Below the pieces are notes generated by a model. That model ran no database searches. It was not told the DNA's origin and saw only the letters and a program-made list of their open reading frames with translations. A stretch of 37,905 bases of DNA from Candidatus Daviesbacteria bacterium (GTDB lineage: Bacteria; Patescibacteriota; Microgenomatia; Daviesbacterales; UBA10151): assembly GCA_028687915.1 (NCBI GenBank), contig JAQTZF010000001.1, forward strand, positions 1,058,634 to 1,096,538, in the 5' to 3' direction. Numbering within the stretch: the first letter of the stretch is position 1; each line of letters starts with the position of its first letter. A program made the translations under genes and the position numbers. Below are positions 11,301 to 37,905 of the stretch, piece after piece.

Positions 11301-11702
11301 GTTGCAAAACATCAAGCTTTGCTTATTGGTTAAAAATCTCTTTTCAACCCTACCTCTCTACATTTTCAGTTATTAAAGTTCTTAACCTCTAACCATTAAT
11401 ATAAGACCCTGATTACCCATTAATTGCTTTACCTGATCCGTTAAAGGATTAATCTTCATGCGATTTATTTTTCTCAAACCTAATTTTTTTGATTTAAAAG
11501 TTATCATTGGGGCTATCATAGTACAGCAAAAATTATTTGTCAAGATAACTGAATCCTATAGCTTTATTTAGTTAAAATAATGATAGGCTTGTAGTAATAT
11601 TAAGAGGATACGATGATACGATTAGGTTAATACAACAATCTAATCTGGAGGATACTTTTTTGATTTCCACCGAAATTTCAGGGTGTGGATAAGTCCTTAT
11701 AT

Positions 11703-12027
11703 GCGTCTTTGGTGGCAAAGACGCCCAAAGCCACTTTGACGGGAAGTGTTACTTCTGAAATGACGGGTCCTGTCGCTACGGTATCTCAGGTGCGTCCTCG
11801 TTCGCTTCGCTCACTTGCGGTCGACTCCCGAGACCTCTCCTCCGCGCCACCCGTCATTTTTATTTTTTTTGCCCGCTTGGAATAAGGGCGTCAAACGAGG
11901 AAGTTTTTGACTGCAGGGGGAGGTCCGAACGCTTTCGGAGGGGGTAAACTTTCCCCCGCAAAGCAAAAACTGACGAGTAGTCCGACTTCCGCGGGCAGAG
12001 TTTTGGTACTTTTGCGGCCAAAAGTAC
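11703..12027 (+). repeat. GC-rich repeat element, copy 1 (bounded by hairpins)
   Basis: Left hairpin GCGTCTTTG-GTGG-CAAAGACGC (11703-11724), 102-bp core with 11-bp TIR AAATGACGGGT/ACCCGTCATTT (11758-11859), right hairpin GTACTTTTG-CGGC-CAAAAGTAC (12006-12027). Inverted second copy at 27890-28234. Confidence 0.85.
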
Positions 12028-18497: not shown

Positions 18498-18612
18498 AAG
18501 TTGACAATATCATACACTATCAGTTGCTATATTGACTACTATTATAATAAGCCGTAATGTTAATGTATACACCTATGCAAGTATATACTTTGCCTACATA
18601 AACCTTATCAAT

Positions 18613-21600
18613 ATGTCTCTGCCCAAAAGTCAAAATCAACAATTAATCCCCATTAGTGCCGCTTCTAAACTTTTAGGCGTGTCTGTAGATACTATTCGCC
18701 GTTGGGAAAAAAAAGGCCTGCTTCAATCCACTAGGCCAAATGGCAAAGACCGTTATTTTTCTGTAGATGATTTAAAAGAATTTCAAGCTACTAAAACGCT
18801 TTCCACCTCTGAAGCTGCAAAACACTTAGGTGTTTGTCCCACTACGCTAAGAAGACTAGACAAAAAAGGCCTTATTAAGGCCAATAGAAATACAAATGGC
18901 GCCAGAATCTTTAGCGCGGAATCTTTAAAAAATATTAATGAACAAATTACTATCCCTAAGCTAAGGCTAAAACACATTTCAGATGAATATTTATCTATTC
19001 CCCAGATCAAGCCTAAGTTAACCACTGTGGAAGAATTACTGGATATGAGCAGAAAAGAAGCTGAAAAACAATATACTGCTCCTTTAACAGAAGGTAAATT
19101 ACAAGAATATGCGAGTGTTGCCTCTGTCATTACAAGTGGAGCAAAGCAATCCAGCCATAAGATTACCACAGCTATTTTAGAAGTTCACAATAATAAACTA
19201 ACTCTTAGTCTTCTTTCTGGAACATTAGCTTCACTTTTCTTAGCTATTTTGATATTAGCCAGAGTTTCAAACTTTCAATTACCATGGCAACAAAAAGAAA
19301 TAGTCAGAAACCAAGTGCCTTCTGCTATAGACCAAAATGTTTTAGCTGCTACTACCAGTAATTATTACATTGATTTGAATTCAGATTTAATATTAGAAAA
19401 AGATTTAGCAGTAGGAGGATCAATTAATAGAATAAATATTATTCCTGGAGGAGATTCTTCTGTTAAAAACTTAACAGTTTCAGTTCCTGCAGTTACTTTA
19501 GATCAGGATTTATCTACTACTTCTTCCCCTACCTTTCAGGGATTAACAGTACTTTCTCCAATAAATGCTCCCTCTGCTTCTACCTCAACTTTAAACTTAA
19601 CAGGTACAAAGGATCAGATTACTTTTAATGTATCTGGTGTTAAGAGTACATTAAGCTGGACCCCTACTTCTGCTGTTACTTTAACCTTACCTAATATCAC
19701 AGATACTTTGGTTTCTAAAACCAGCACTGATACTTTAACTAATAAAACAATTACTGCAGGAGATAATACTTTAACAGGAAGTTTTACAGGTATTACAGGA
19801 TTGGGCACAATAGGAACAGGTACCTGGAATGGAACTAAGATAGGAGCTACTTATGGAGGTACAGGTATCACAACATATACAACAGGTGATTTACTATATA
19901 GCAGTGCATCAAATACCTTAGCTAATTTAGCTGTAGGAACCAATGGACAGGTATTAACAATTAGTAGTGGTTTACCTACCTGGGGAGCTGCTGCTGCTTG
20001 TGCTGATTGTATTGTGACTGATCCTTCCACAGCCCAGTCTATTACCCCAACTGTAGCAGATATCACCACATTAACTCTTCAGGCTGCCCCATCAGGGACT
20101 GCCAATATCTTTGATGTTAAAAGCAATGATGGACTAACTTCATATTTTTCTGTTGATTCCTCAGGTAAGATGTCCTCTTCTGCTTTTCAGTTAACTGATA
20201 TTAACAATGCTGTGGTAGGAACAGCTGTACCAAATGGATGGACTTTGGGAGCAGGAGCATATACTTACAGAAGAATATTAACTGTTACTAATAATGACGG
20301 CTCAAATACTCTACCAATTAATCACCAGGTGACCCTATCCTTAACTGGAGCAACAGCCACAGATGTTTGTTCTAATTCTTTATCTAATGCTAATGATATA
20401 CGAGTAGCCTACTCTACCAATGGATCTACCTTTACTGAGATAGCCAGAAATATTACCAGGACTTGTGGTACTCCCACAGTTGATGTTTCCTTCCAACTCC
20501 AGGGAACCATAGCTCCATCTACCTCAAATACTAACTATTACCTCTACTATGGTAACTCAAGCATAGCCACCACCCCTTCAACTTACACCTATGATACTGT
20601 GACTTTAGATGATGGGGATACTGTAGGAAACTGGACCAGTAATGATGGCACTAATTTTACCCTTTCTCAGGAAACTACCATCAGAAATAATGGAACTGGT
20701 TCTGTTAAAGCAGTTGCAGCTACCCCAACCTGGGGAAATGCTGGAACATTTTCTACCACTGGCCAAGGACAATTACTTGATACGACAAATGGCGGATATG
20801 CCACAACTGCTACTGTCGGTGGCACAACTTATCTTTATTCCCTAGGCGGAGGTTGGAACACTAATGTCAGCAAATCTCAACTCAATTCCTCTGGTGATGT
20901 TGGTGCTTTTACAAACTCTGGTCAGGGACCATTACCACTGGATATGGGTAGTTTTTATGCAACGACTGCAACAATAGGTAGCACCACCTATATGTATATT
21001 ATTGGAGGAGTTTCTCAAGCATATGTGGATCAATCAACTGTATATAGAGCTACTATTGATTCTTCAGGCAATGTTAGTGCTTTTTCTACTACTGGTCAGA
21101 CTCAGTTATCATCAGCCAACCAAATCATCACCGGTATTACCCATACAACTGGAGGCACAACTTATGTTTATGTTCCTTTTGCTGCCAACAGCACTTTATA
21201 CAGAGCTCAAATTGATACTTCTGGTAATGTTGGAGCTTTTGATACCACAGGACAGGGTCAGGAACCCATTAATGATGCCTTTTATTACACCAAAGCCACT
21301 TTTGGAGGCACAACTTATGTTTATGCTTTGAGATTTTTTGGTAATGGAGTATACCGGGCTGAAATTGATGAGTTGGGTAATATGGGAGCTTTTTCTGCTA
21401 CGGGACAGTCCCAAACAATGCCCCAACTCAATAATATTTACCCCCAAATAGCCACAGCTGGAGGAGTTAACTATATTTATTTGATTGGCGGACAAAATGG
21501 AGGCAGCGTCAGGCAATCTACTGTTTACCGGGCTGCTTTAGATTCATCTGGGAATGTGGGAGCCTTTTCTACTACCAATCAATCCCAGTTGCCACAACTT

Positions 21601-24600
21601 ATATCAAATGGGCAGGCTGCCACAGCCACTATTGGAGGAACTTCATATCTATATTTCTTAGGCGGAGTTCTAGATGGTTTTGGTAATATTTCTACTGTCT
21701 ATAAATCAACTATCTCTAATCCCCCTACTTATACAGCTACCAAAACTCTATCCTCTACTGATTTATCTGGTAAAGGATCTATATCTTTTTATGTATATTC
21801 ATCCCGTACTGGCAGCTATTCTAACTTAGAATTCTCTGAGGATGGAAATACCTGGCAAACAACTGCCTACACTATCTCTCAGGCTAATACCTGGGAGGGA
21901 AAAAGTTGGGATATTTCAGGTTTGAGTAGTTCTGTCAAAGATGCTGTAACCAGTTTAAGATTCAATATTACTGATTCTACAACTGGCTTTACCATGTACA
22001 TGGATAATATTACTGCAGTACCATCAGCTTATGCTGGTACTGCTCCTATAGTATCTGCTGCTAGTAAAGTACTTGGATCTTCCAATCTAGCCCTCAATGC
22101 TCAGGGAACAGGGTTGGTAGCTATTAACTATGATGCCAACTCTCTAGCAGGAACAGGAGGGTTAAATGTTTACAACGGTGGTACCACTTCTCTCTTCTCT
22201 GTAGGTAGCTCTGGAGCAATTACAGCCACCGGAGCTATGTCAGGAGTATTAGGTATTACTACTACAGGAGATATCCTGCCTTCAACTAACAATACATATA
22301 ATTTAGGTTCTAATACTGCCAGATGGCAGGATATATACCTTGGCCCAGCTTCTATCCATCTTGGTACTTCTACTACTGATGAGTATAAAATCTCCTATGA
22401 TACAACCAATAACAGATTAGGTTTTAATGTTAATGGTTCAGGAAATGATGAGATTGTTTTTGATTCTTCCGGGTTTGTTGGTATTGGGACAACCTCTCCA
22501 ACTGTAGCTTTGGATGTAGTAGGAAGTGCTTTAATTACTCCTGCCACTGGTTCTACTACTGCTTTAACACTCCGGGCTGCTCCAACTGGAGCTAATAATA
22601 TTTTTGATGTGTTATCCAATGATGGGACTACCTCATACTTTAGTATTGATTCCTCGGGACAAATGTCTGCCTCTGCTTTTAAATTAACTGATTCTGCCAA
22701 AGCTATTATTGGGACTGCCATTCCAGGGGCCTGGGAAAATATAGCTACAGTTCCTGAGAATGATTTTACCTACAGAAGAGCTGTTTCTGTTACAGCTACA
22801 GGTAATTTAGCTGCTAATTATGAGGTGACTATGGATATTAGTACCCCTGCTACAGCTTCCCAAATTTATTCCAATACCTACAACCAGGCAGATCCATATA
22901 GAGACTTTAGATTGTTTTACACAACAAACGGAGGATCAAGTTATACAGAAGTACCAAAAAATGTGAGTGCCTTTACTAACTCCCGGGTAACTTTTACCTT
23001 CCAATTACAAGCCCAAATTGATGATGCCCAAACATCAAGTACTAATTACTACCTTTTTTACTCAAACTCTGCTTATGCAGGTATGTCTACCCCTCCTACC
23101 TACACAGGAGATCTAAACTGGGACTCACATACAGAATCAACTACTGGTTGGACTAGTGCTGATTCTGCTTACCAGTTATCTACAACCACTTCCCCTACTT
23201 CCCAAGCAGGTACTTATTCATTAAAGGAAATAGCTACTGTAGATAGGATGGGAACTTTTGCTATTACTAACCAAGGTCAATTAGGTGCTACTTTAAATGA
23301 CCTTGCTGCTATAACTACCACCATTGGTTCTTCTACCTATGTTTATGTAGTTGGAGGAAATACAGGAGCTGCTGATGTAGCTACTATTTACAAATCAACA
23401 ATTAGCTCAAATAATCTTTCTGCTTTTGCCACCACTGCCTATCCTTTACCTCAAGAATTATCTGGAGCAAGCGGTGTTATTTCTTCTTCTGCCGATATAG
23501 GCACTGGAGCTCTGGGACCTTTGAATCTAACAGATGGGACTGGCTGCCCTACTGGAGCAGACTTTGATTGGAACGGCACCACTTGCACAATTAAAACCAC
23601 TAGAGTATACAACTATACAACTATCACAATCCCTCCGGGGAAAATTTTAACAGCCAATCAAGGAATCATTCCTACTCTTAAAGCTACTACCAGCGTTTCC
23701 ATTACTGGCACAGGATCTATTAATTTAGATGGTAAGGGCAGTGCTGCAGGAGCAGGAGATAATCCAGGATCAAATGGTGGTGGCACAGGATGTGCTCGTG
23801 GAGGGGGTGGAGGCGGTGGTCATGGAGCTGCAGGAGGTGCGGGTGCATCAGTTAGCACGAACACTGAGGATGGTTGTAGCGGAGCGGGTGGTGCTGGTCC
23901 AAGAGGAGAAGCAAATGCTAATCAACTAGCCTTGGGTAGTGGCGGCGGAAATAGTGCCGGAGCTGGAGGCGCAGGTGGTGGAGCTATTAAAATAATTAGT
24001 GCTGGTAATATCACCATTGAGGCCAGTAGTGTCATCAGTGCTAATGGAGCCAATGCAGCTGGAACTGGGGGTGGAGGTGGAAGTGGTGGAAGTATTGTGC
24101 TTCAATCCTATGGATCCATTGGCAACAGTGGCACTATCCGAGCTAATGGCGGTCATGGTAGCGACAATTCTGCAACTTATAATGATGCTACAGGTGGCGG
24201 TGGTGGCGGTGGTGGCGGATTAATTACGCTACAGGATGCTGACGGTTCAATTGCTGGCACTATCACGGCTACTGGTGGTAATGGCAGTGCAGGCTATGAA
24301 TACCATGTTTCGACTGAAGATACTAGTATTTCTGCTAGCGCGGCTGGGAGCACCTTTACCGTCTCTCCTTCTATCCTGAGCACAGATTATTACCTTTATG
24401 TCTTGGGTGGTAAAAATGGATTAAACTACCGGTCAACAGTATATAAAGCAACTTTAAATAGCACCACTGGAGATACTTCAACTGAACTTGCTACAACTTC
24501 ACAAGATCAACTTGATGCACCATTAACAGGGCATACCACCCTTACCCAAACAGTAAATGGGTCCAACTTTATTTATGTATTAGGAGGGTATACAGGTTCT

Positions 24601-26985
24601 GCTTATGTATCCAGTGTCTACAAATCTACTATTAATGGTACTGGTGATATTGTTGCCTTTGCCACTACTTCCCAAGGCCAACTTCCTTTACTACTTTCTA
24701 ATCATGCCCAAGCTACAGTTACCATAGGAAGTACAACTTACCTCTATGTAGTAGGTGGTAAGAGCGGTGATTCTACTTACATGAGTACTGTATATAAATC
24801 TAATATTGATCCTACTAGTGGAGATATCCAGGCTTTTACCACAACTTCCCAAGGACAATTACCTGTAGCTTTGTATGATCTATCAGCTACCACAGCTACA
24901 GTTGGATCTGTTAATTATATTTATGTGTTTGGTGGTAATAATGGATCAGCTAATGTTTCAACAGTTTACAGAGCAACTATTGATGGTTCAGGAAATATAG
25001 GAGCATTTAGTACTACTGGACATACTCAACTTAATGCCATTTTGTCAGGACATCAAACTGTAACTAATACCTCTTCAGGTACCACCTATTTCTACACCAT
25101 AGGAGGAACTTCTGCCTCTGCTGTATCTACTGTATATAGATCTACTACCACCTCTGATATGACTAACTTCTATATAGAAAAGAAGATTTCTGATACAGGA
25201 ATTGATTTAAGTAATAAAAATGATATTACTTTCTCCTTTTATTCTACAGATAATGTGGCAGATCTCATGGAAGTAGCTTTTTCAGAAGATGATACTTCCC
25301 CCACCTACTCACACACCTACACCTTTAGGGGTAATCCTGCTGATGGTTGGAGAAGTATTGATTGGGATATTTCCAGTCCTGGTATAGCTGCTGCTGATAA
25401 AAACTCAGTGAAATGGATTAGGTTTAAAGTAAATACTGCCAGGACTACAGAATTTACCACATATATTGATAATATCCAGGTTCAAACAGAGGCAACAGGA
25501 AACGATACTACCTCTGCCTTAACCTCAGCCTTAGGAGCTGCTAATTTAACCTTAAATGCTCAGGGTACTGGTTTAGTAAGGGTTAATTACTCTGATCCTG
25601 CTGATCCTACCAACTTCCCTAACCTAGCAGGTTCAGGTGGGCTGGTTGTATATGATGGATCTAATACAGCAATCTTTTCTGTAGGATCAACTGGAGCTAT
25701 TACTGCTACAGGAGGATTAACTTTCTCTGGAGTAACTACTGATATAACTACAGTAAGTAATCAGGATTTGATAATTTCTCCTAATGGTACAGGTAAAGTT
25801 GGTATTGGAACTACTGCTCCTGGGTACTTGCTACAGGTAGGTAATGCTGGAGATGGTAGTGAGGCAAGAGCTAATGCCTGGAATTCTTTGTCTGATTCAA
25901 GGCTAAAGGAAAATGTAGCTAGTATCTCTGGAGCTTTGGATAAAGTACTGGCTTTAAATGGAGTAAGTTTTGATTGGATATCAAATGGACAAAAGAGCTT
26001 AGGATTTGTAGCTCAAGAAGTAGAAGGAATATTACCTGAGGTAGTATCAACAGGAATAGATGGATATAAATCAATTAATTATTCTGCTATTACCCCAATA
26101 ATAATAGAAGCCTTAAAAGAATTAAATACTAATATAGACTTAAGATTTAAGAATAATGATTTAAAAATAAGCGGAGCTTTTCTACGAATTAAAGATCTGG
26201 AAGATAAGTTAGCTTCAATCTCTGCTCAAATTCAATCATCAAATTCAGCTGATTTAGCTTCTGTATCAACCCAATCAAACATAAGTGAGTTAAATTTAAC
26301 CCCACCAGAGCAGCTTTTGGCAACAAACAGTGCAAAATTAGTTGATTTATCTGTTACCTCTGATGCTACTTTTTCAGGACAATTAGCAGCCTACTCTGCT
26401 ACTATCTCTGATACTTTTAAATCACTTGGTAATACATATTTGGGGAATACCAGTATTGCAGGAGACTTTAATATAGATGGAACAATGAATATCAGTAGAA
26501 ATTCCATAAGCACCTTAGATGCCTTATATATCCAAAACGGACCTTTGGCAGGAGATATAGATTTCTTTAATGGACAAGTTATTATTGATAATCAAGGCAA
26601 CATTAAAGTTGGAGGCAACCTGGAAATAGAAGGAGCCATAACCATTAGCGCATTTGCCGGAGAAAACTTAAAAACCGGAGATGCTGTCTATATTTCTGCA
26701 GATAAAACTGTAAGCAAGGCTGATTCCATAATTGCAGGTAAAACTGGTGTAGTTGGCTTAGTTCTATCAGGAGTTAATAAAAACCAACCAGTTATAGTTG
26801 CTATTAATGGCAAAATAAACGGATTAACTAATCTTAAAGCAGGCAGTAAATATTATCTTGGTCAAAACGGGCAGTTAACCACAACCCTACCTTCCAGCTC
26901 TGTAAAAAATATACAGGTAGGAGTTGGTTTCAGCTCCACTCAATTATTAATTCAAATCTTTGACTTTAATGGTTTGATAAATTAA
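18613..26985 (+). CDS. giant surface fibre protein 1: two MerR-type HTH motifs, one TM, beta-propeller-like repeats, glycine-rich insert, peptidase S74/intramolecular-chaperone-like domain
   Basis: ORF track starts at 18532; ATG at 18613 (MSLPKSQNQQLIPISAASKLLGVSVDTIRRWEKKGLL) is in frame and gives a more plausible N-terminus. TM LTLSLLSGTLASLFLAILILA; kelch-like blades (TTATIGSTTYLYVVGG..STVYKATID..G.I.AF.TT.QGQLP); S74-like SDSRLKENVASISGALDKVLALNGVSFDWI...GFVAQEVEGILPEVV. Confidence 0.92.
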   Translation: MSLPKSQNQQLIPISAASKLLGVSVDTIRRWEKKGLLQSTRPNGKDRYFSVDDLKEFQATKTLSTSEAAKHLGVCPTTLRRLDKKGLIKANRNTNGARIFSAESLKNINEQITIPKLRLKHISDEYLSIPQIKPKLTTVEELLDMSRKEAEKQYTAPLTEGKLQEYASVASVITSGAKQSSHKITTAILEVHNNKLTLSLLSGTLASLFLAILILARVSNFQLPWQQKEIVRNQVPSAIDQNVLAATTSNYYIDLNSDLILEKDLAVGGSINRINIIPGGDSSVKNLTVSVPAVTLDQDLSTTSSPTFQGLTVLSPINAPSASTSTLNLTGTKDQITFNVSGVKSTLSWTPTSAVTLTLPNITDTLVSKTSTDTLTNKTITAGDNTLTGSFTGITGLGTIGTGTWNGTKIGATYGGTGITTYTTGDLLYSSASNTLANLAVGTNGQVLTISSGLPTWGAAAACADCIVTDPSTAQSITPTVADITTLTLQAAPSGTANIFDVKSNDGLTSYFSVDSSGKMSSSAFQLTDINNAVVGTAVPNGWTLGAGAYTYRRILTVTNNDGSNTLPINHQVTLSLTGATATDVCSNSLSNANDIRVAYSTNGSTFTEIARNITRTCGTPTVDVSFQLQGTIAPSTSNTNYYLYYGNSSIATTPSTYTYDTVTLDDGDTVGNWTSNDGTNFTLSQETTIRNNGTGSVKAVAATPTWGNAGTFSTTGQGQLLDTTNGGYATTATVGGTTYLYSLGGGWNTNVSKSQLNSSGDVGAFTNSGQGPLPLDMGSFYATTATIGSTTYMYIIGGVSQAYVDQSTVYRATIDSSGNVSAFSTTGQTQLSSANQIITGITHTTGGTTYVYVPFAANSTLYRAQIDTSGNVGAFDTTGQGQEPINDAFYYTKATFGGTTYVYALRFFGNGVYRAEIDELGNMGAFSATGQSQTMPQLNNIYPQIATAGGVNYIYLIGGQNGGSVRQSTVYRAALDSSGNVGAFSTTNQSQLPQLISNGQAATATIGGTSYLYFLGGVLDGFGNISTVYKSTISNPPTYTATKTLSSTDLSGKGSISFYVYSSRTGSYSNLEFSEDGNTWQTTAYTISQANTWEGKSWDISGLSSSVKDAVTSLRFNITDSTTGFTMYMDNITAVPSAYAGTAPIVSAASKVLGSSNLALNAQGTGLVAINYDANSLAGTGGLNVYNGGTTSLFSVGSSGAITATGAMSGVLGITTTGDILPSTNNTYNLGSNTARWQDIYLGPASIHLGTSTTDEYKISYDTTNNRLGFNVNGSGNDEIVFDSSGFVGIGTTSPTVALDVVGSALITPATGSTTALTLRAAPTGANNIFDVLSNDGTTSYFSIDSSGQMSASAFKLTDSAKAIIGTAIPGAWENIATVPENDFTYRRAVSVTATGNLAANYEVTMDISTPATASQIYSNTYNQADPYRDFRLFYTTNGGSSYTEVPKNVSAFTNSRVTFTFQLQAQIDDAQTSSTNYYLFYSNSAYAGMSTPPTYTGDLNWDSHTESTTGWTSADSAYQLSTTTSPTSQAGTYSLKEIATVDRMGTFAITNQGQLGATLNDLAAITTTIGSSTYVYVVGGNTGAADVATIYKSTISSNNLSAFATTAYPLPQELSGASGVISSSADIGTGALGPLNLTDGTGCPTGADFDWNGTTCTIKTTRVYNYTTITIPPGKILTANQGIIPTLKATTSVSITGTGSINLDGKGSAAGAGDNPGSNGGGTGCARGGGGGGGHGAAGGAGASVSTNTEDGCSGAGGAGPRGEANANQLALGSGGGNSAGAGGAGGGAIKIISAGNITIEASSVISANGANAAGTGGGGGSGGSIVLQSYGSIGNSGTIRANGGHGSDNSATYNDATGGGGGGGGGLITLQDADGSIAGTITATGGNGSAGYEYHVSTEDTSISASAAGSTFTVSPSILSTDYYLYVLGGKNGLNYRSTVYKATLNSTTGDTSTELATTSQDQLDAPLTGHTTLTQTVNGSNFIYVLGGYTGSAYVSSVYKSTINGTGDIVAFATTSQGQLPLLLSNHAQATVTIGSTTYLYVVGGKSGDSTYMSTVYKSNIDPTSGDIQAFTTTSQGQLPVALYDLSATTATVGSVNYIYVFGGNNGSANVSTVYRATIDGSGNIGAFSTTGHTQLNAILSGHQTVTNTSSGTTYFYTIGGTSASAVSTVYRSTTTSDMTNFYIEKKISDTGIDLSNKNDITFSFYSTDNVADLMEVAFSEDDTSPTYSHTYTFRGNPADGWRSIDWDISSPGIAAADKNSVKWIRFKVNTARTTEFTTYIDNIQVQTEATGNDTTSALTSALGAANLTLNAQGTGLVRVNYSDPADPTNFPNLAGSGGLVVYDGSNTAIFSVGSTGAITATGGLTFSGVTTDITTVSNQDLIISPNGTGKVGIGTTAPGYLLQVGNAGDGSEARANAWNSLSDSRLKENVASISGALDKVLALNGVSFDWISNGQKSLGFVAQEVEGILPEVVSTGIDGYKSINYSAITPIIIEALKELNTNIDLRFKNNDLKISGAFLRIKDLEDKLASISAQIQSSNSADLASVSTQSNISELNLTPPEQLLATNSAKLVDLSVTSDATFSGQLAAYSATISDTFKSLGNTYLGNTSIAGDFNIDGTMNISRNSISTLDALYIQNGPLAGDIDFFNGQVIIDNQGNIKVGGNLEIEGAITISAFAGENLKTGDAVYISADKTVSKADSIIAGKTGVVGLVLSGVNKNQPVIVAINGKINGLTNLKAGSKYYLGQNGQLTTTLPSSSVKNIQVGVGFSSTQLLIQIFDFNGLIN

Positions 26986-26995
26986 TGTAAAGATA

Positions 26996-27847
26996 ATGCC
27001 TAAATTATTAATAAAATCTGTTCTTATTTTTCTATCATTACTTGTTGTTGTAACAGCTAATATTCCTTTGTGCTTTGCTCAACTAGGTTCTGTTGATTTT
27101 ACCTACACATATAATGTTCCTGATAAAGAAATTACTGATGGAGACATTATTTCTTCTTCTGCTGAAAAAGGCTTTTTCAGATCTGATTTTGCCTATGATT
27201 CTCATGCTTTTGGAGTAGTCCAATTATCACCTTTAATAGTCTATAAAGGTGTTGATAGTACCGGCACACCTATTGCCAGAACAGGCACAGCTACAGTCAA
27301 TGTAACCACCTTAAATGGCCCAATTATCCCTGGTGATTTTGTTACTACTTCAGAGATTGCTGGTAAAGGTCAAAAAGCCGTGGTTTCCGGAAATGTGATT
27401 GGAGTAGCTTTAACTGGTTTAGGATTAGCTGATGGAACAGAATTTGATTATCAGAGAAAATCTACCACTAATCAACAAAACCCATCACAAAAATTCAGAA
27501 CTGGTAAAGTAACTGTTGCTTTAAGAATGGAATATGCAGAAATCACCTCAGCCAGAACTGCATTAAGGTTATTAGATTCATTTAATGCAGCATTATTTAC
27601 CAATGTGCAAAATCCTGATCAATTTGTAAAAATATTCCGCTATATTACAGCCATAATCATAGTGCTTATTTCATTTGCTATTGGCTTTTTTACTTTTTCC
27701 AGAGCCATACCAAAAGGAATTGAGGCTATTGGTAGAAATCCCTTAGCACAAAAAACCATTATCTTCTCCATAGTCCTAAATATAGCATTTACTGTTATAA
27801 CAGCCGTAGCAGGCATAGCTGCCGCCATCATGATCCTTAAATTCTAA
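26996..27847 (+). CDS. F-ATPase subunit c-like membrane protein with N-terminal extracytoplasmic domain; no TM2 carboxylate
   Basis: 283 aa; signal peptide MPKLLIKSVLIFLSLLVVVTANIPLCFA, ~180 aa ectodomain, then FRYITAIIIVLISFAIGFFTFSRAIPKGIEAIGRNPLAQKTIIFSIVLNIAFTVITAVAGIAAAIMILKF: two TM helices joined by an EAIGRNP polar loop typical of subunit c. First gene of the F1-like cluster. Confidence 0.8.
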   Translation: MPKLLIKSVLIFLSLLVVVTANIPLCFAQLGSVDFTYTYNVPDKEITDGDIISSSAEKGFFRSDFAYDSHAFGVVQLSPLIVYKGVDSTGTPIARTGTATVNVTTLNGPIIPGDFVTTSEIAGKGQKAVVSGNVIGVALTGLGLADGTEFDYQRKSTTNQQNPSQKFRTGKVTVALRMEYAEITSARTALRLLDSFNAALFTNVQNPDQFVKIFRYITAIIIVLISFAIGFFTFSRAIPKGIEAIGRNPLAQKTIIFSIVLNIAFTVITAVAGIAAAIMILKF

Positions 27848-27889
27848 TAAATAGAGCCTACTGAAATGCCCACAATAATTTTTTTTAAA

Positions 27890-28234
27890 GCAACTTTGAC
27901 CGCAAAGTTGCGCAAACTCGCCTGACGGAAAGTCGACCTAAAGCTCGTCGTCTGCTAATCGGGGAATGGCACCCCTTCTGCCTTTCGCTTCGCTTCAGCA
28001 GGCTTCCCCTGATATCAGCCTCCTCGCTTCTTAACGGTCTTTGTTTCAAGTCAGGCACAAAATAAACAACAACTATAAATGACGGGTGGCGCGGAGGAGA
28101 GGTCTCGGGAGTCGACCGCAAGTGAGTGAAACGAACGAGGACGCACCTGAGATACCGCAGCGACAGGACCCGTCATTTTAAGAAAAAATCTTCTCTCGAA
28201 TTGGCTTTTGCGACACTTTTGCCACCAAAGACGC
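27890..28234 (-). repeat. GC-rich repeat element, copy 2 (inverted relative to copy 1)
   Basis: 102-bp core at 28077-28178 is the reverse complement of 11758-11859 with 3 mismatches; boundary hairpins GCAACTTTG-ACCG-CAAAGTTGC (27890-27911) and an imperfect one at 28210-28234. Confidence 0.85.
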
Positions 28235-28292
28235 AAAATAAAAATGTATTTGGGAATTGAATTTTTAGGAAAATTCTACTATTCTTTAGTTA

Positions 28293-29003
28293 ATGCCCAA
28301 AACTCTACTTTTTGAAATTATTGCTTTAATAGCCAGCCTCGCAGTTGCCATAATCTCACTTGCACTTTATTTAGGAGAATACTACAAAAGAACTAAGGAA
28401 AAAAATGCAAAATCAGGCTTTCAAACAATTGATGCAACAGAAGCAAAAAGCCTCAATGTTCTATACAGAGCTATTAAAAAAGCCCAGGCAATTATAGGAA
28501 ATGCTGAGCTGGCAGGAATTAAAATAGGTGCAGAAAATCGTTTAGCAGAAAAAAAGCTTGAAGGAACTTTTGAGTCACAACTCAATGTTGCCAGAACTGA
28601 TCTGGAAAAAGAAATGTCTTCCCAGATGAATAAAACCTATTCTGAGTATATAAAATTTCTGGAAACATTAAAAGAACAAAATAATCAGATTCAGGCCATT
28701 AATCAGGAGGCAATAAAACAAAGAGCAAATTCTATTTTTGATAAATTTGAACAAAATTTAGGCACTTTTTTAACTTCAACTGAACAAAAAAGTGTGGCTT
28801 CTATTGAATTGGAACTTAGATCTGCCAGACAGTTGATTGAAACTTATAAAACAGAGCAGATAGCCATCATTGATGAAAATATTATCTCAATTTTAGAGAG
28901 AACACTTGCTTTGGTTTTAGCTAAAAAAATCCCCTTAAAAGATCAGGTTGACCTAGTCTATGAAGCTTTAAGTAAAGCCAAGGTGGAAAAATTTATTGCA
29001 TAA
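28293..29003 (+). CDS. atpF: F-type ATPase subunit b-like protein
   Basis: 236 aa; single N-terminal TM, long coiled coil, position between c-like and delta genes. Confidence 0.8.
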   Translation: MPKTLLFEIIALIASLAVAIISLALYLGEYYKRTKEKNAKSGFQTIDATEAKSLNVLYRAIKKAQAIIGNAELAGIKIGAENRLAEKKLEGTFESQLNVARTDLEKEMSSQMNKTYSEYIKFLETLKEQNNQIQAINQEAIKQRANSIFDKFEQNLGTFLTSTEQKSVASIELELRSARQLIETYKTEQIAIIDENIISILERTLALVLAKKIPLKDQVDLVYEALSKAKVEKFIA

Positions 29004-29012
29004 TACTCAGCT

Positions 29013-29513
29013 ATGGATACCAATTTATTTGAACTAATTTTATCTGACAGTTATATTAAAAATCAGGCTGAAAAAAGGATTTTAGCCTTAAAAAATTATA
29101 TACTGGGGGGGATTTTTATTGATAGTAAAGAAAAAAAACTTAAAGAAGCAGCTACCGATAATCCTAAATTAGATTTATGGATTAACTCAATAGATAAAAA
29201 GGTGCTTTCTAAAATTACTCCTCAAAATATCTATTCAACTTTTGAAGTTTTAGAAAAAGAGATTAAAGCAATTGAACCTTTAATATTATATCTCCCCTAT
29301 GAATTACCAGATGAAGAAGTTGCCCAGATTGGTACAAAATTACGAGCTGACTATGGTAAAAAATTTCTAATGGAGATTACCATTGACCCCAGTTTAATTG
29401 CCGGTTGTGCCTTATCCTTTCGTGGAATTTATAAAGACTACTCTGTTAAACAAAAGATTACTGATAATAAACAAGAGATTCTAGCAGCATTTAGACAATA
29501 TGTTAAACACTAA
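29013..29513 (+). CDS. atpH: F-type ATPase subunit delta (OSCP-like)
   Basis: 166 aa; C-terminal FLMEITIDPSLIAGCALSFRGIYKDYSVKQKI matches the conserved delta C-terminus pattern. Confidence 0.85.
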   Translation: MDTNLFELILSDSYIKNQAEKRILALKNYILGGIFIDSKEKKLKEAATDNPKLDLWINSIDKKVLSKITPQNIYSTFEVLEKEIKAIEPLILYLPYELPDEEVAQIGTKLRADYGKKFLMEITIDPSLIAGCALSFRGIYKDYSVKQKITDNKQEILAAFRQYVKH

Positions 29514-30987
29514 ACCTCAGGAAATCGGCTTCGTTAAACAAACCAGGGAATTTATTGCTTCGGTGGATGGCTTACCAAGCGCAAGAATTAACGATTTAGT
29601 GGAAAATGAACAAGGAGTCAGAGGGTTAGTCAGCGCTTTATCCAAAAATAGTGTTGAAATCTGGCTGCTTGATGAAGGAAATGTTCAACCAGGTCAAAGC
29701 TTTAAAAGTACTAATACCCGTTTAACTGTTCCTTTGGGAAACTTTTTATTAGGCAGAGCTGTTAATCCTTTGGGTGTAGCTATTGATGGTCGCCCACCGT
29801 TTGCCAAAACAGAACAAACTCAAATTGCAGAACTGGATGGACCTGCACCAGGCATTAATGCCCGAAGATTTATTGACAGACAGCTGGAAACAGGGATAAC
29901 CATTGTTGACTCTCTTATCCCCATAGGCAAGGGCCAGAGGGAATTAGTTTTGGGAGATGCCCGTTCCGGTAAACAGGATTTCTTGATTGATATTATCATC
30001 AACCAAAGAGAGAAAGATGTTATTTGTATCTTTGCTGCGATTGGTAAGCCCTTGGCAGAAGTTAGAAACATCATTGATACCCTCAAATTTAACAAAGCCT
30101 TAGAGTATACCGTGATTGTTGCCACAGCTTCTTCAGACCCTGCTCCTTTAATTTTTATTACACCACAAACAGCTTTTACAATTGCTGAGTATTTTCAAAA
30201 ACAAGGTAAAGATGTGTTGATTATCTTGGATGATTTAGCTAATCATGCCAAAATTTATCGAGAAATAGCATTACTAGGTTCACGCTCCCCTGGAAAAGAA
30301 TCTTATCCTGGAGATATCTTTTACCAACATTCTCATTTATTAGAAAGAGCAGGAAACTTTAAACCAGAAGCTGGTGGAGGTTCGATTACAGCCTTGCCTG
30401 CTATTGAATTTAATCTTAATGATTTTACAACCTTTATCCCTACTAACGTCATGTCTATGACAGACGGACATTTACTTTTTAAATCTGAATATTATCGTCA
30501 GGGTCAAAGGCCGGCAATTGATTTATCATTATCTGTCTCCCGTGTGGGACAACAAACCAAGAGTAATTTAGCCAATCTGATGGCAACAAGGGTTAAGCAG
30601 GTACTAGCCAGGTCTGCCCAGCTTGAATCTGTCAGCCGTTTTGCTTTTGAGCTACCTTTTGCCACCCAGTTAATCCTAAAACAAAAAGACATGTTCACAG
30701 AATTAAAAAATCAGGCTCCCCTAACATTAATTTCTACCCAAGTCCAATTAATTTTGATGGCTCTCCCCTTCACCAATATGATGCAGGATAAAGATAAACT
30801 GTATATTAGAAGATACAAAGATTTAATTGTCAAAGCTTTTACTGAAGATGTTGAATTATCAGCTTTTGCTACAAGTATTTTAAACCTTGCAACTGATGAT
30901 GAATTAATAAACCAATTGAATATTAACCCTGTAATGAAAAAGTTGGATCAAATTATGGCTGGTAAACCAATAACCAAAAAAGTATGA
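29500..30987 (+). CDS. atpA: F-type ATPase subunit alpha (divergent P-loop)
   Basis: 495 aa; LETGITIVDSLIPIGKGQRELVLGDARSGKQ, SSDPAPLIF, SPGKESYPGDIFYQHSHLLERAG, IPTNVMSMTDGHLL, RPAIDLSLSVSRVG. Confidence 0.96.
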   Translation: MLNTKPQEIGFVKQTREFIASVDGLPSARINDLVENEQGVRGLVSALSKNSVEIWLLDEGNVQPGQSFKSTNTRLTVPLGNFLLGRAVNPLGVAIDGRPPFAKTEQTQIAELDGPAPGINARRFIDRQLETGITIVDSLIPIGKGQRELVLGDARSGKQDFLIDIIINQREKDVICIFAAIGKPLAEVRNIIDTLKFNKALEYTVIVATASSDPAPLIFITPQTAFTIAEYFQKQGKDVLIILDDLANHAKIYREIALLGSRSPGKESYPGDIFYQHSHLLERAGNFKPEAGGGSITALPAIEFNLNDFTTFIPTNVMSMTDGHLLFKSEYYRQGQRPAIDLSLSVSRVGQQTKSNLANLMATRVKQVLARSAQLESVSRFAFELPFATQLILKQKDMFTELKNQAPLTLISTQVQLILMALPFTNMMQDKDKLYIRRYKDLIVKAFTEDVELSAFATSILNLATDDELINQLNINPVMKKLDQIMAGKPITKKV

Positions 30988-31820
30988 GTACAGTTAAACA
31001 AATACGAGAACAACTTGATGCCAGTGAGTCATTAAAATTAGTGGCACAAGCTTATACAGAAATTTCAGCTTTAAAGTTGGAAAAAATTAGGTCTGGAATA
31101 GAAAAAAACAGAGACTTCTTTCAAGAGATTACAGAGGTTTATCATGTTGTAAATACAGAAGCCTCAAAGCTGAAGTTACAATTACGTCCTAAAAAAGGCA
31201 CAGTAAGTGTATTAATCACCTCTAACCAACATTTTTATGGAGCATTAGAAAAAGAACTGGTTAAATTCTTTGTTTTAAATACCACTAAGTTTGCAACAGA
31301 CAGAGTTGTTATTGGATCAACTGCCAAAGAGTTTTTACAATCATTTAATTATTTCCATCCTTATCAACAGGTTATTTTAAAAACAGACATTCCAACATCA
31401 GAAGAAATGAAATCTATTGTTGATAAGGTAAGTGGTTATGAACAAATCTTAATTTACTATTCCAGAATGCACTCTATCTTAACTCAGGAACCACATGTAG
31501 TAGATGTTGTACAAAAACCGCCAACCTTCTTTTTAAAATCCCAAGCTTCTACGATTAGTTATATCTTTGAACCAGAATTAGTAGAGATGTTATCATTTTT
31601 TGAAGACCAGATTACTATGTTATTAATTGAACAAACATTCCTGGAATCAGAACTGGCCAGAGCAGCTGCCAGACTTACTTCTATGGATCAGGCCCAATTT
31701 GCAGCAGATGACATAATCCTTAAAATTAAACAAGAATTAGCCAGAGCAAAGAAATCAATTGAAAATGTTAATTTACTGGAAAATATAGCAACTATGAAAG
31801 CTTTTCATGATAGGGCATAA
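30984..31820 (+). CDS. atpG: F-type ATPase subunit gamma
   Basis: 278 aa; N-terminal VKQIREQLDASESLKLVAQAYTEISALKLEK and C-terminal ARAAARLTSMDQAQFAADDIILKIKQELARAKKSIENVNLLENIA helices of the gamma coiled coil. Confidence 0.9.
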   Translation: MSTVKQIREQLDASESLKLVAQAYTEISALKLEKIRSGIEKNRDFFQEITEVYHVVNTEASKLKLQLRPKKGTVSVLITSNQHFYGALEKELVKFFVLNTTKFATDRVVIGSTAKEFLQSFNYFHPYQQVILKTDIPTSEEMKSIVDKVSGYEQILIYYSRMHSILTQEPHVVDVVQKPPTFFLKSQASTISYIFEPELVEMLSFFEDQITMLLIEQTFLESELARAAARLTSMDQAQFAADDIILKIKQELARAKKSIENVNLLENIATMKAFHDRA

Positions 31821-31917: not shown

Positions 31918-33315
<1,398 letters not shown>

Positions 33316-33317
33316 AT

Positions 33318-33650
33318 ATGGCCACCACTCCTTTTGCAAATAATAACCAGCCAACTCCAAAACCTGCTGCTAATTCAAAGCAGGAAGTCTTAAATGTGAG
33401 AGTCTTCTCACCTAAACGAGAATACTACCACGGACCCGCTGTTTCTATTTCCTCTGTTAACTCAGCAGGACCATTTGATATTCTTGCAGAACACGGAAAC
33501 TTTATTACCCTAGTCAAAAATGACCCAATTATTATCCGTTTGCCAAATAAGCAAAACCTTACATTTACCTTTCCCCTAGCAGTATTTTATATTAGAAAAA
33601 ACTCAGTCTCTATTTTTACTGATATCGAATTAGAAAGCCTTCCTGTTTAA
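33318..33650 (+). CDS. atpC: F-type ATPase subunit epsilon, beta-barrel domain only
   Basis: 110 aa; LNVRVFSPKREYYHGPAVSISSVNSAGPFDILAEHGNFITLVKNDPIIIRLPNKQNLTFTFPLAVFYIRKNSVSIF; no C-terminal helical hairpin. Confidence 0.88.
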   Translation: MATTPFANNNQPTPKPAANSKQEVLNVRVFSPKREYYHGPAVSISSVNSAGPFDILAEHGNFITLVKNDPIIIRLPNKQNLTFTFPLAVFYIRKNSVSIFTDIELESLPV

Positions 33651-33944: not shown

Positions 33945-36900
33945 ATGAAAAGCTTGCCCAATAATACATCAAAAAAATTCGTTAAAATTGGTGAAGCTGC
34001 AGCAAAATTAGGCGTCTCCATTGATACCCTTCGAAGATGGGAAAAAGCAGGCAAGATTGAAACAATTAGAACCCCAGGCGGCACCAGGTTTTACTCCATT
34101 TCCACTATCTCAGATATAACTAAAACCCCTAAAAAATACCAAAGAAATGATACAGTAAATGCTATTAAGCCAAAAGCAACCTCAATCGAAGACTTGTTGA
34201 GCATTGTTCGAAATGAAGAAGCACCTAAGTCTCAAACCCCTGGCACGGATCAAAAATGGCAGGAATATGTTGACACAAGAGTTATCCAACCTAAAGAAGT
34301 AACAGTAATTTCTCAGACAGAGATAGAGAATGAAATAGTAAATAATAAAGCAGGAATTGGTTTAAAATATAAACCCTTAGCCATAACTATTTTTTCTGGA
34401 AGTGTAGTTGTAATTTTCTTAGCCTTCTTAGTTATAGCCAAAGCTTCTAACTTTAATCAACCTATCAATTTATGGAACATTGCTACTGGTCAAAAACAAG
34501 CAAAAGACACTGCTAGCCAGTCAGTTACAGATTCCAATGTTCTTGCTGCTACCTCCAATAATTATTACCTTGATTTAAATTCAGACTTAATTATTGAGGG
34601 TGATTTAGCAGTTGGCAAAACTATCAACAGACTGCTTCTAACCCCCAACGAGGATGGATTCTCTATTTCCGGTGGTACCACCAGCAGAAAGATGACAGTT
34701 GTGGGCGGAGATGTTACCTTAGATCAAGACGTTTCAACTAATGGTTCTCCAACATTCCTAGGTTTAGCTCTACCTGCTAAACAAATTTCTATAGGCAATC
34801 AAACCATCACCTTACCTGAGGCAACCGGCACAGTATTACTTGATTCAACTACTCAAACTATAACAAACAAAACCATTTCCGGATCATCTAATACTTTCTC
34901 TAATATCCCCACTTCTGCTCTAGCTAATACTAAGATAACTATTAATCCTGGTACTAACTTATCTGGTGGTGGTGATATTACTTTAGGTAGTTCAGGTACA
35001 TTATCACTTAAAGATGATGTCTCCCTCTCTACAGTAACAGCATCATCCTATCTATCACTATCTCAAACTACGGCACCAACAACCACAACAGGCAAACTTT
35101 ATAATGTTTCAGGCTCTCTTTATTGGAACGGAACAGACCTTACTGGTGGTGGTGCAATCCCAGAGGGAACTTCCGGCCAGACACTCTACTTTAATGATAC
35201 TACCCTTACTGCTACTTCTAATCTTTTTAACAATGGTACTAATGTAGGTATTGGAACCCAAGTCCCTGGTGCAATTTTAGATGTCCGATCGAGTTTTGCT
35301 GATTCAAGTACTGCTCAAAATTATAACTTATTTGCCCAAGCCAGCGTAACAGCTGGTGAAACCACCAACTCCCCTTTTGTTGATGGAGGTTATCTTGAAT
35401 CAAACTTTAGTGGTACAGATACTCAATATGGAATCAGAGGATTAGATGCCCGAGCATATAACTCTTCTACAGGAACAGTCTCCCGGGCTTTTGGGGCTTT
35501 TGACTTTGCCCAAAATACCAGTACCGGAATAATCACCTCTGCTGCAGGAACATTGAGCCGGGTAGTAAATTATGGAGCTGGAACAATTAATTCTGGCACA
35601 CTATTTTATGGCACTACTTCCAATGGCAATGCATCCGGCACTATCGGAACTCTTTATGGTTTAAGACTTGATTCATGGGAAAACCTGGGAACAGTGGATA
35701 CTTCTTATGGTATCTATATGAATGACTCAATTGATGTGGGAACTACCAGATATGCCCTCTACTCTGCCTCTACCTCTGATTCCTATTTTGCTGGTGATGT
35801 GGGAATCGGAACAACCAGTCCAGGATTTAAGTTAGATGTTAACGGCATAGTTAATGCAACTGCCCTTTATGTTAATGGTACTCCTTATATTGGTTCACAG
35901 TGGACTACTGCTGGTTCTGATATTTATTACAATGATGGTAATGTTGGAATTGGAACCACCACTCCAACATCTTTTACTTTAGAAGTTGGTGGACCCATTG
36001 GACCAGACGCTAATAACACCAGAGATATTGGATCACCTACTAAATATTTTGCAAATGCTTACATCACCAATTTAGTCAGTGGTAGTTCCGGAACAGTTGG
36101 TTATTGGGACAGAACCGGAACTGTCCTTTCTCCTGCAAATACCAGTGACAGTATAAGTTTAACCTTAGGAGCTGTTAATACCTCCGTTACAGCCAATTCA
36201 GTTACCCTTAATCCTGTCACTAATACTTCTGGTGATGTTACCCTGAAAGGTTTATCAGTAGGTTTTGGAGCTGGAACCGGTATTAATCAAAATGGGGCTG
36301 GCTCTTCCACTACTTTTAGCGGCGCTGATATTACCATCCCAGCTTTAACTCAAACTGATGGAACCTTAACTGCCAACGGAGTCCAGGTCACTACCCCATC
36401 CTCTATTACCACTGGAGGCACAGCCAATGGTTTAAAAGTTGTAGCTGCCGGTATTGGGGCAGGAGCATTAAATGGAGTCAGTATTGGTACTATCACTGCT
36501 GGCGATGGTACTGAAACAGCCTTAAATATTGGTACTGGTTGGGACAGCGCATTAACTGTAAATGGAGTAAATGTTGTAAATGGTTTGGGAGTTACTCAGG
36601 TAGCAGGAGGTGGTACAGGAATAGCTTCTTACACAGCTGGCGATTTAATTTATGCTACAGATACCACAACCTTAAATAAATTAGCCGCAGGTATTCTAAA
36701 TAACGGCAAGGTCTTAGTCGTTTCTGATGGTTCACCAACCTGGGGAACCATTGATGGATCAGTTTGTTCTAATTGTTTAGTTAATAATCCAACAGGCACT
36801 CAAACTATAGCTCCAACCGGACAAGGCACCACTGGATTAACTATTAGACAAACTTCAACTGCCTTACCAACTCAAGATATTTTTTCTATTACCAATGCTG

Positions 36901-37905
36901 CTGGTGATGTTAAATACTTATCTGTTTCCAATAGCGGTGTAGTCAATTTAACAGGAACCAGCTCTGAAACCTTAACCCTAACCCCTTCAACAGATACAAC
37001 AGCCCTGACTTTAGTTGGTACAAATGTTTTAACTCAAAAATTATCCTACTTTAATGCTAATAATAACCAGGGCACTGTTTTTGATTTATCCTATGGAGCT
37101 GCCCAAAGCTTAGCTGGAGATTTAACAGGACAAAGTATTAATTTAGCAACCAACCTAACTCCAACCAATTACTCTGTAGTTGGAGAAGCTATCACCCTAC
37201 CACCAGTTACCAACACCCATACCACAGGAACTGTATATAACCGTGGCTTAGTAGTAACTACTGGTACAGGTTCTGGTGTAAACCAAAATGGATCAGGTGG
37301 AACAACAATTTATTCCGGAGTTGATTTAACTATGCCTGCTTTAACTCAAACCGCAGGTACTTTAACTGCAAATGGAATGTTAGTTACCACCCCCTCTTCT
37401 ATAACTACCGGAGGAACAGCCAATGCAATTAATGTTTCTGCTTCGGGAGTAGGAGCAGGAAGCTTAAATGGTATTAATATAGGAGCTATTTCTTCTGCGG
37501 GAGCTGGTACAGAAACAGCCCTAAATATTGGTACTGGCTGGGATATGGGGATTAAATTAGGAGATGATTCAAAAGTAGGACTTGGTACCACTTCAGGTTA
37601 TATTGAATTTGATAACCAGGCCACCAATGAAATTAATTTTATTAGTGCAAATGTTGGTATTGGTTCTACTGCCCCTACAGGTAAGCTGGATATTGTTGAT
37701 ACTTCAAATACTGCTGCTTCTTTGGTTTTAACCAATAATACTGCTACTACTATTGGGGCTGGAACAAATACTTTAGGGGTAATAGATCTACAATCCACTT
37801 CCTTAACTACTGGTAATTTTATGAATATGGAGTTAAATGCTCTTTCTTCAGGTAAAGGATTTAATCTAACTTCTACTTCTACTGCTCTCTCTTCTGGATC
37901 TTTGG
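33945..37905 (+). CDS. giant surface fibre protein 2 (partial, open at right edge), paralogue of fibre protein 1
   Basis: Frame traced from ATG at 33945 at many points to the window end with no stop seen. MerR-type HTH KFVKIGEAAAKLGVSIDTLRRWEKAGKIETIRTPGGTRFYS, TM PLAITIFSGSVVVIFLAFLVIA, NVLAATSNNYYLDLNSDLIIEGDLAVGKTINR closely matches fibre 1 (NVLAATTSNYYIDLNSDLILEKDLAVGGSINR). Absent from the ORF track, probably because it has no stop in the window. Confidence 0.92.
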   Translation, partial: MKSLPNNTSKKFVKIGEAAAKLGVSIDTLRRWEKAGKIETIRTPGGTRFYSISTISDITKTPKKYQRNDTVNAIKPKATSIEDLLSIVRNEEAPKSQTPGTDQKWQEYVDTRVIQPKEVTVISQTEIENEIVNNKAGIGLKYKPLAITIFSGSVVVIFLAFLVIAKASNFNQPINLWNIATGQKQAKDTASQSVTDSNVLAATSNNYYLDLNSDLIIEGDLAVGKTINRLLLTPNEDGFSISGGTTSRKMTVVGGDVTLDQDVSTNGSPTFLGLALPAKQISIGNQTITLPEATGTVLLDSTTQTITNKTISGSSNTFSNIPTSALANTKITINPGTNLSGGGDITLGSSGTLSLKDDVSLSTVTASSYLSLSQTTAPTTTTGKLYNVSGSLYWNGTDLTGGGAIPEGTSGQTLYFNDTTLTATSNLFNNGTNVGIGTQVPGAILDVRSSFADSSTAQNYNLFAQASVTAGETTNSPFVDGGYLESNFSGTDTQYGIRGLDARAYNSSTGTVSRAFGAFDFAQNTSTGIITSAAGTLSRVVNYGAGTINSGTLFYGTTSNGNASGTIGTLYGLRLDSWENLGTVDTSYGIYMNDSIDVGTTRYALYSASTSDSYFAGDVGIGTTSPGFKLDVNGIVNATALYVNGTPYIGSQWTTAGSDIYYNDGNVGIGTTTPTSFTLEVGGPIGPDANNTRDIGSPTKYFANAYITNLVSGSSGTVGYWDRTGTVLSPANTSDSISLTLGAVNTSVTANSVTLNPVTNTSGDVTLKGLSVGFGAGTGINQNGAGSSTTFSGADITIPALTQTDGTLTANGVQVTTPSSITTGGTANGLKVVAAGIGAGALNGVSIGTITAGDGTETALNIGTGWDSALTVNGVNVVNGLGVTQVAGGGTGIASYTAGDLIYATDTTTLNKLAAGILNNGKVLVVSDGSPTWGTIDGSVCSNCLVNNPTGTQTIAPTGQGTTGLTIRQTSTALPTQDIFSITNAAGDVKYLSVSNSGVVNLTGTSSETLTLTPSTDTTALTLVGTNVLTQKLSYFNANNNQGTVFDLSYGAAQSLAGDLTGQSINLATNLTPTNYSVVGEAITLPPVTNTHTTGTVYNRGLVVTTGTGSGVNQNGSGGTTIYSGVDLTMPALTQTAGTLTANGMLVTTPSSITTGGTANAINVSASGVGAGSLNGINIGAISSAGAGTETALNIGTGWDMGIKLGDDSKVGLGTTSGYIEFDNQATNEINFISANVGIGSTAPTGKLDIVDTSNTAASLVLTNNTATTIGAGTNTLGVIDLQSTSLTTGNFMNMELNALSSGKGFNLTSTSTALSSGSL

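Follow-up and report, generated by a model that had tools for sequence, protein, structure and literature searches.

A subunit c-like hairpin with a secreted ectodomain heads a second F1-type operon in Patescibacteria: a candidate rotary machine of the cell surface

Why should a small bacterial genome that encodes an ordinary ATP synthase carry a second set of F1 genes, headed by a gene in which a subunit c-like hairpin is joined to a large domain outside the cell? This question is raised by the end of the 1.097-Mb single-contig genome of a Candidatus Daviesbacteria bacterium (GCA_028687915.1). The whole stretch of DNA that was analysed, called the window here, comprises 37,905 nucleotides, and the gene under study, named c*, lies in it next to F1-like genes and to genes for giant surface proteins. 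The architecture and ancestry of c*, its operon and the work that the encoded complex may perform are considered in turn.

Architecture and ancestry of c*

The features of the gene, all on the + strand, are the following:
26996..27847, +, c* subunit of 283 aa, in which a secreted ectodomain is joined to a two-helix hairpin of the ATP synthase c type
26996..27079, +, signal peptide with predicted cleavage between A28 and Q29 (Q29 conserved in 90% or more of the members)
27101..27538, +, extracytoplasmic beta domain, residues 36-181, about 150 aa, with a predicted phage fibre/decoration fold (AlphaFold2 model, structure matches, weak Pfam matches)
27560..27607, +, helix 189-204 linking ectodomain and membrane (AlphaFold2 model)
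27614..27841, +, c-like hairpin, residues 207-247 and 249-282, ion site without carboxylate (profile comparison, model, Foldseek)
27722..27748, +, predicted gamma/epsilon docking site, the cytoplasmic loop EAIGRNPLA, residues 243-251, all but I245 invariant (n = 77)

The AlphaFold2 monomer, obtained from a 77-sequence alignment with a mean pLDDT of 92.3, is composed of a beta ectodomain, a helix and a helical hairpin that turns at GRNP 246-249, which confirms the fusion of a hairpin to a secreted ectodomain proposed in the preliminary description. The two TM segments of the hairpin are joined by the loop PKGIEAIGRNPLAQK. The topology put forward at the same time, with the GRNP loop in the cytoplasm, holds in prediction as well: the signal peptide cleavage site, between A and Q at about residue 28, is conserved (pattern in 75 of 77 homologues) and the loop is rich in K/R (on average 3.9 K/R vs 1.1 D/E over 24 residues), so that the positive-inside rule predicts a cytoplasmic location. 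That this architecture is kept in 77 sequences argues for more than chance. The hydrophobic moment of helix 189-204 is above average, not significantly so; judged from its sequence, a role as an amphipathic spacer on the membrane surface is a possibility.

A relation of the hairpin to ATP synthase subunit c had also been suggested, and several comparisons uphold it. Aligned by HHalign with the canonical c subunits of the same genomes, the c* hairpin scored a probability of 97% (E 9.6e-11), the negative controls giving E 0.62 with reversed columns and 1e-3 for the best of 30 column shuffles. Subunits c were the top matches of the c* family profile in the PDB, and with Foldseek the modelled hairpin superposed on the solved subunit c 9itt at 1.4 A (TM 0.86, the best match) and on several others at 1.6-2.4 A. 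Over 77 c* members subunit-c models were the top four NCBIfam families, the best one matching 43 of them. Individual sequences score lower: the window protein alone matched the NCBIfam subunit-c model with E 0.0028 and 17.6 bits vs a cut-off of 122, its best PDB sequence match was the c2 subunit of Acetobacterium woodii (E 0.0014), no Pfam family was assigned to it, and PF00137 (ATP-synt_C) matched 11 of 77 homologues (best E 0.0015), single c* sequences falling below the curated Pfam cut-off. The trait of PF00137 that c* does carry is a two-helix hairpin with a polar R-N/Q-P cytoplasmic loop. A chance likeness of the GRNP loop was ruled out by the HMM-HMM controls, the structure superposition and the operon context. 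By sequence and model, the c* hairpin is homologous to subunit c and derived from it.

The residue that binds the ion has been lost. All 16 canonical c subunits taken from the same genomes have this carboxylate in the second helix, and it occurs in 0 of 78 c* sequences; a non-acidic, mostly hydrophobic residue fills this column in the 77 homologues, and an acid is absent from the whole TM2 body in 78/78. A TM2 acid was found in two of 23 distant homologues, placed six residues before the ion site, and a conserved Asn lies five residues before the site in 71 of 78 c* sequences. By sequence, the hairpin is ion-dead. The GxGxG packing motif of TM1 is likewise rare (3/78 in c* vs 11/16 in canonical c), and with this motif lost a ring packed like the canonical c-ring cannot be assumed. 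The loop shows the opposite behaviour: E243, A244, G246, R247, N248, P249, L250, A251 and I255 are invariant in 77 c* sequences, as expected if docking on gamma/epsilon were still selected. Since the loci had been fetched with this very motif, a fairer figure for its conservation is given by the 35 c* sequences found by whole-protein search, all of which keep G-R-N-P.

A fibre-like nature of the ectodomain had been raised as a question for domain searches, and the answer was favourable at the level of fold. Structure matches in BFVD pointed to phage fibre and decoration proteins, including preneck appendage proteins (best E 1e-8, with TMq reaching 0.39 across some 150 residues), weaker matches to capsid proteins were obtained in the PDB, and the Pfam matches among homologues, Phage_cement_2 and XM1_gp53, were weak. 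The same domain family recurs inside giant surface proteins of these genomes, often encoded next door.

A second F1 operon, its distribution and its neighbours

c* is the first of seven genes in the order c*-b-delta-alpha-gamma-beta-epsilon. The remaining genes of the operon and the two giant genes that flank it in the window are the following:
18532..26985, +, upstream giant surface protein of 2817 aa with two MerR-type HTH, one TM, Kelch motifs and an S74 chaperone domain
28293..29003, +, b-like peripheral stalk (best PDB profile match ATP synthase b, E 1.9e-7)
29013..29513, +, delta (OSCP)-like subunit (PF00213, E 1.2e-8)
29500..30987, +, alpha subunit paralogue (all 75 sequences retain the arginine finger)
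30984..31820, +, gamma subunit paralogue, full length (PF00231, E 7.5e-27)
31936..33315, +, beta subunit paralogue (all 65 sequences retain P-loop, catalytic Glu and Walker B)
33318..33650, +, epsilon paralogue reduced to the N-terminal beta sandwich
33945..37905, +, downstream giant surface protein with MerR HTH and TM, truncated at the end of the window

All 65 beta sequences agree in their catalytic residues (P-loop Lys/Thr, catalytic Glu/Arg, Walker B Asp), and on such residues the F1 part of the operon looks active. The b-like protein is modelled with one N-terminal TM and a 165-residue helix, a single TM being found in 70 of 75 members. Epsilon is short in the c* operons (110 aa in the window, median 91), the canonical epsilon of the genome lying in a 152-aa frame. 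In many bacteria the C-terminal helices of epsilon are inhibitors of hydrolysis; their loss fits a dedicated hydrolase.

Relatives were collected by scanning one conserved peptide pattern over 85,462 genomes, which gave 148, 80 of them kept. Gene order is maintained in all 80 loci, the seven genes are all present in 60 and the median intergenic gap is 6 bp; distant members of the phylum show the same arrangement in most cases. This context makes docking of the c* hairpin on F1 likely. Neither subunit a nor a canonical c was found in the c* loci examined (L080, among the loci checked for subunit a, is a canonical locus and not a c* one). The beta subunits of the c* operons form a clade apart from canonical beta, distant members included (support 0.98); support for the corresponding alpha clade is weak (0.63).

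The genome also contains an ordinary a-c-b-delta-alpha-gamma-beta operon at 793-799 kb (G000:C1), which holds its only subunit a gene. Subunits a, c and b were present in all the canonical operons checked in 15 related genomes, and alpha, gamma and beta were also seen in 14 of the 15, one being cut by the end of the stretch. In one canonical operon, alpha and gamma are separated by an additional ORF of 210 aa (L002:5774-6406); this operon has a short delta of 131 aa and an epsilon gene about 13 kb away. With neither subunit a nor an ion site, the c* operon was ruled out as an ordinary second ATP synthase. These two losses, which the preliminary description does not mention, decide the function: an ion-dead c* in an operon devoid of subunit a does not make a variant ATP synthase.

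c* matches were obtained in 46 of 57 related genomes, and most of those from the same family have c* at full length; in the source family of the window 36 of 45 genomes matched at E 1e-20. The named genomes with c* operons belong mostly to Candidatus Daviesbacteria and to other Patescibacteria of the Microgenomates group. In a phylum-wide sample 160 of 384 genomes matched c* at E <=1e-10; about 60 of these matches are full-length, and the remainder correspond to the ectodomain only, inside larger proteins. A 16S primer that is presumably specific for Saccharibacteria matches exactly in seven distant c* genomes, which serves as a lead only. By gene content, many ultrasmall CPR/Patescibacteria carry a second, ion-channel-less operon of the ATP synthase type beside the normal one.

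Some loci depart from the common arrangement. In L134, L192, L195, L200 and L202 the c* gene was found without F1 genes in the stretch read; these genes may be either free-standing membrane hairpins or parts of operons split elsewhere. Two different c*-like genes surround one F1-like operon in L193, L194, L196 and L207, which suggests a mixed ring or two partner surfaces. In the window, the intergenic stretch 27848-28292 between the c* and b-like genes is GC-richer (0.45) than the genes on either side (0.33-0.35), a segment of it recurs in inverted orientation at 11702-11868 with 86% identity, and the gap is absent from most relatives; it is possibly a small mobile or repeat element. No Rfam match to a non-coding RNA was found in the window. 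Type IV pilus genes, which ORF lengths had suggested upstream of many loci, were rejected at the locus tested (L053), where the upstream genes encode leucyl- and arginyl-tRNA synthetase, a competence-type protein, an SLBB/HHH protein, a phosphoesterase and NDK.

The upstream giant gene stops 10 bp 5' of c*, and both giants of the window start with one or two MerR-type HTH domains, to which a single TM segment and then a giant ectodomain are joined. Giants of this HTH-TM type adjoin 38 of 80 c* loci vs 0 in 262 kb around canonical operons; 61 such ORFs were counted near F1-like operons in 59 sources (window and loci, some overlapping). For the 20 distant c* loci, giants were detected in the stretch read only for L210 and L211. 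It is unusual for a DNA-binding domain to be attached to an adhesin-like fibre, and from their domain composition these proteins may be contact-sensing membrane transcription regulators.

A proposed rotating crown and its alternatives

The components described above are those of a motor, and the reading favoured here, with a probability of roughly 0.6, is an F1 motor that hydrolyses ATP, is no longer coupled to ions and drives a ring of extracellular domains round. The operon would encode a rotary ATPase of the F1 type that has given up both ion pumping and ATP synthesis. About 8-15 c* hairpins would assemble into a ring, rings of subunit c being 8- to 17-mers; ATP hydrolysis would turn gamma/epsilon and hence the ring, b and delta holding alpha3beta3 still, and torque would emerge outside the cell as the rotation of a crown of beta domains. 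In the most speculative step, the crown would act on the adjoining giant fibres, resulting in surface movement, host contact or fibre remodelling. The identities of the operon parts are well supported by sequences and models; ring formation and rotation are what we infer, the rotating crown being the most economical reading of the operon. Even odds may be given to the wider proposal of a new class of rotary machine, in which a former ion rotor would have become a mechanical shaft through the membrane that spins a crown of domains resembling phage fibres at the surface of Patescibacteria and possibly moves or engages giant adhesin fibres.

Several observations count against a rotor, as far as gene content and sequence comparison can tell: the TM1 GxGxG motif is lost in c*, there would be no subunit a to keep the b stalk beside the ring, a few c* homologues lack F1 genes nearby and single c* sequences stay under the Pfam ATP-synt_C cut-off. 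In addition, some ten beta domains, attached to helices of the inner ring, would be crowded above a narrow ring, unless splayed outwards. The first two of these also favour the strongest competing explanation, in which a static or small c* oligomer would act as a docking platform that recruits F1, and an ATP-driven conformational change, instead of continuous rotation, would be passed to surface proteins via the ectodomain or the b stalk: GxGxG packing is gone, subunit a is absent, and b and delta are kept. The analogy comes from Mycoplasma mobile, where an F1-like motor with no recognised c-ring is proposed to power the surface legs (PMC11864180); a mechanism of this kind has been put forward for the linear output of Mycoplasma gliding motors. 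However, the interface of gamma/epsilon with c appears to be kept in the c* operons (gamma is full length, epsilon is present and the loop is invariant), and a non-rotary anchor needs an extra reason for retaining a hairpin derived from subunit c. A platform of this kind is considered unlikely, though it deserves to be taken seriously.

The neighbouring giants lead to a third and distinctly improbable explanation, by analogy with the ATPases found beside secretion systems: the F1 motor and the c* ring would assist in folding, extruding or shedding the giant fibres. The HTH-TM fibres adjoin nearly half of the loci (38/80), the ectodomain family is shared with some of the giants and the upstream giant of the window contains an S74 chaperone domain; however, the operon includes no channel-forming component, the giants have ordinary TM segments, and most distant members were without detected giants in the stretch read (L210 and L211 being the only cases among 20). 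Last, a modified ion pump that borrows the canonical subunit a, encoded in every canonical operon examined, with the ectodomain as a decoration, is very hard to sustain, as the carboxylate is missing in 78/78 sequences without a replacement nearby in TM2 and a second subunit a gene never occurs in the c* operon.

Significance and relation to known systems

As judged from the sequences compared, the c* operon is real, conserved and surprising. To our knowledge, the rotary motors known to rotate on the cell exterior, the flagellum and T9SS, are ion-driven (cf. PMC9127263). If the rotating crown is true, an outward shaft powered by F1 and independent of ions would be a new way of performing mechanical work on the cell surface, and it would offer a concrete answer to the open question in Mycoplasma gliding of how F1-like rotation reaches surface proteins (PMC11864180). 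It would also provide the poorly understood Patescibacteria with a candidate energy-consuming surface machine that has been kept across much of the phylum, cultivable Saccharibacteria being possible carriers of the operon. The comparison suggests a route from an energy converter to a mechanical device by the loss of one gene, the loss of one residue and the gain of one domain. No published description of the Patescibacteria c* operon was found in the literature covered, outside of which lie most subscription journals and preprints.

The c* operon resembles canonical F1Fo in its homologous alpha, beta, gamma, epsilon, delta and b subunits and c hairpin, and in the conserved order c-b-delta-alpha-gamma-beta. 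It differs from it by the absence of subunit a, by a c hairpin devoid of the carboxylate for the ion and of the glycine motif in TM1, and by an epsilon without its C-terminal domain, as well as by the signal peptide and the ectodomain of about 150 aa on c*. With the N-ATPase and alternate F1Fo it shares the condition of a second F-type operon within one genome. The N-ATPase is an ion pump with subunits a and c, whereas the c* operon lacks a and its c appears ion-dead; the alt_F1F0 models stayed below cut-off (alpha/beta vs TIGR03324/TIGR03305, 383 vs 750.5 and 422 vs 752 bits).

Among described systems, the type 2 and 3 F1-like ATPases of Mycoplasma, the M. mobile gliding motor included, come nearest to the c* operon. 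They likewise exist in addition to a normal F1 set, are by sequence not ion pumps and are linked to surface proteins. The path from F1-like rotation to the surface proteins is unknown in the Mycoplasma gliding motor (PMC11864180). The type 2/3 clusters (F1-X0) have no recognisable c, b or delta (PMC3369863), whereas b, delta and c-like genes are present in the c* operon, and membership in the Mycoplasma families was rejected, the alpha/beta scores against the NCBIfam models MSC_0618/0619 and MMOB1660/1670 (263 vs 520, 377 vs 570, 349 vs 600 and 362 vs 850 bits) being below the cut-offs. By description, Mycoplasma Protein 5 is similar to c* in outline: it has a signal peptide and a large domain, and it ends in an uncharged hairpin of two TM segments. 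Its large domain was found to be protease-protected and taken as cytoplasmic (PMC3369863, PMC11864180), in contrast to the ectodomain predicted for c*. The ectodomain itself resembles in fold the domains of phage fibres, preneck appendages and capsid decorations, and differs from phage fibre domains in being fused, in a bacterium, to the hairpin of a membrane rotor.
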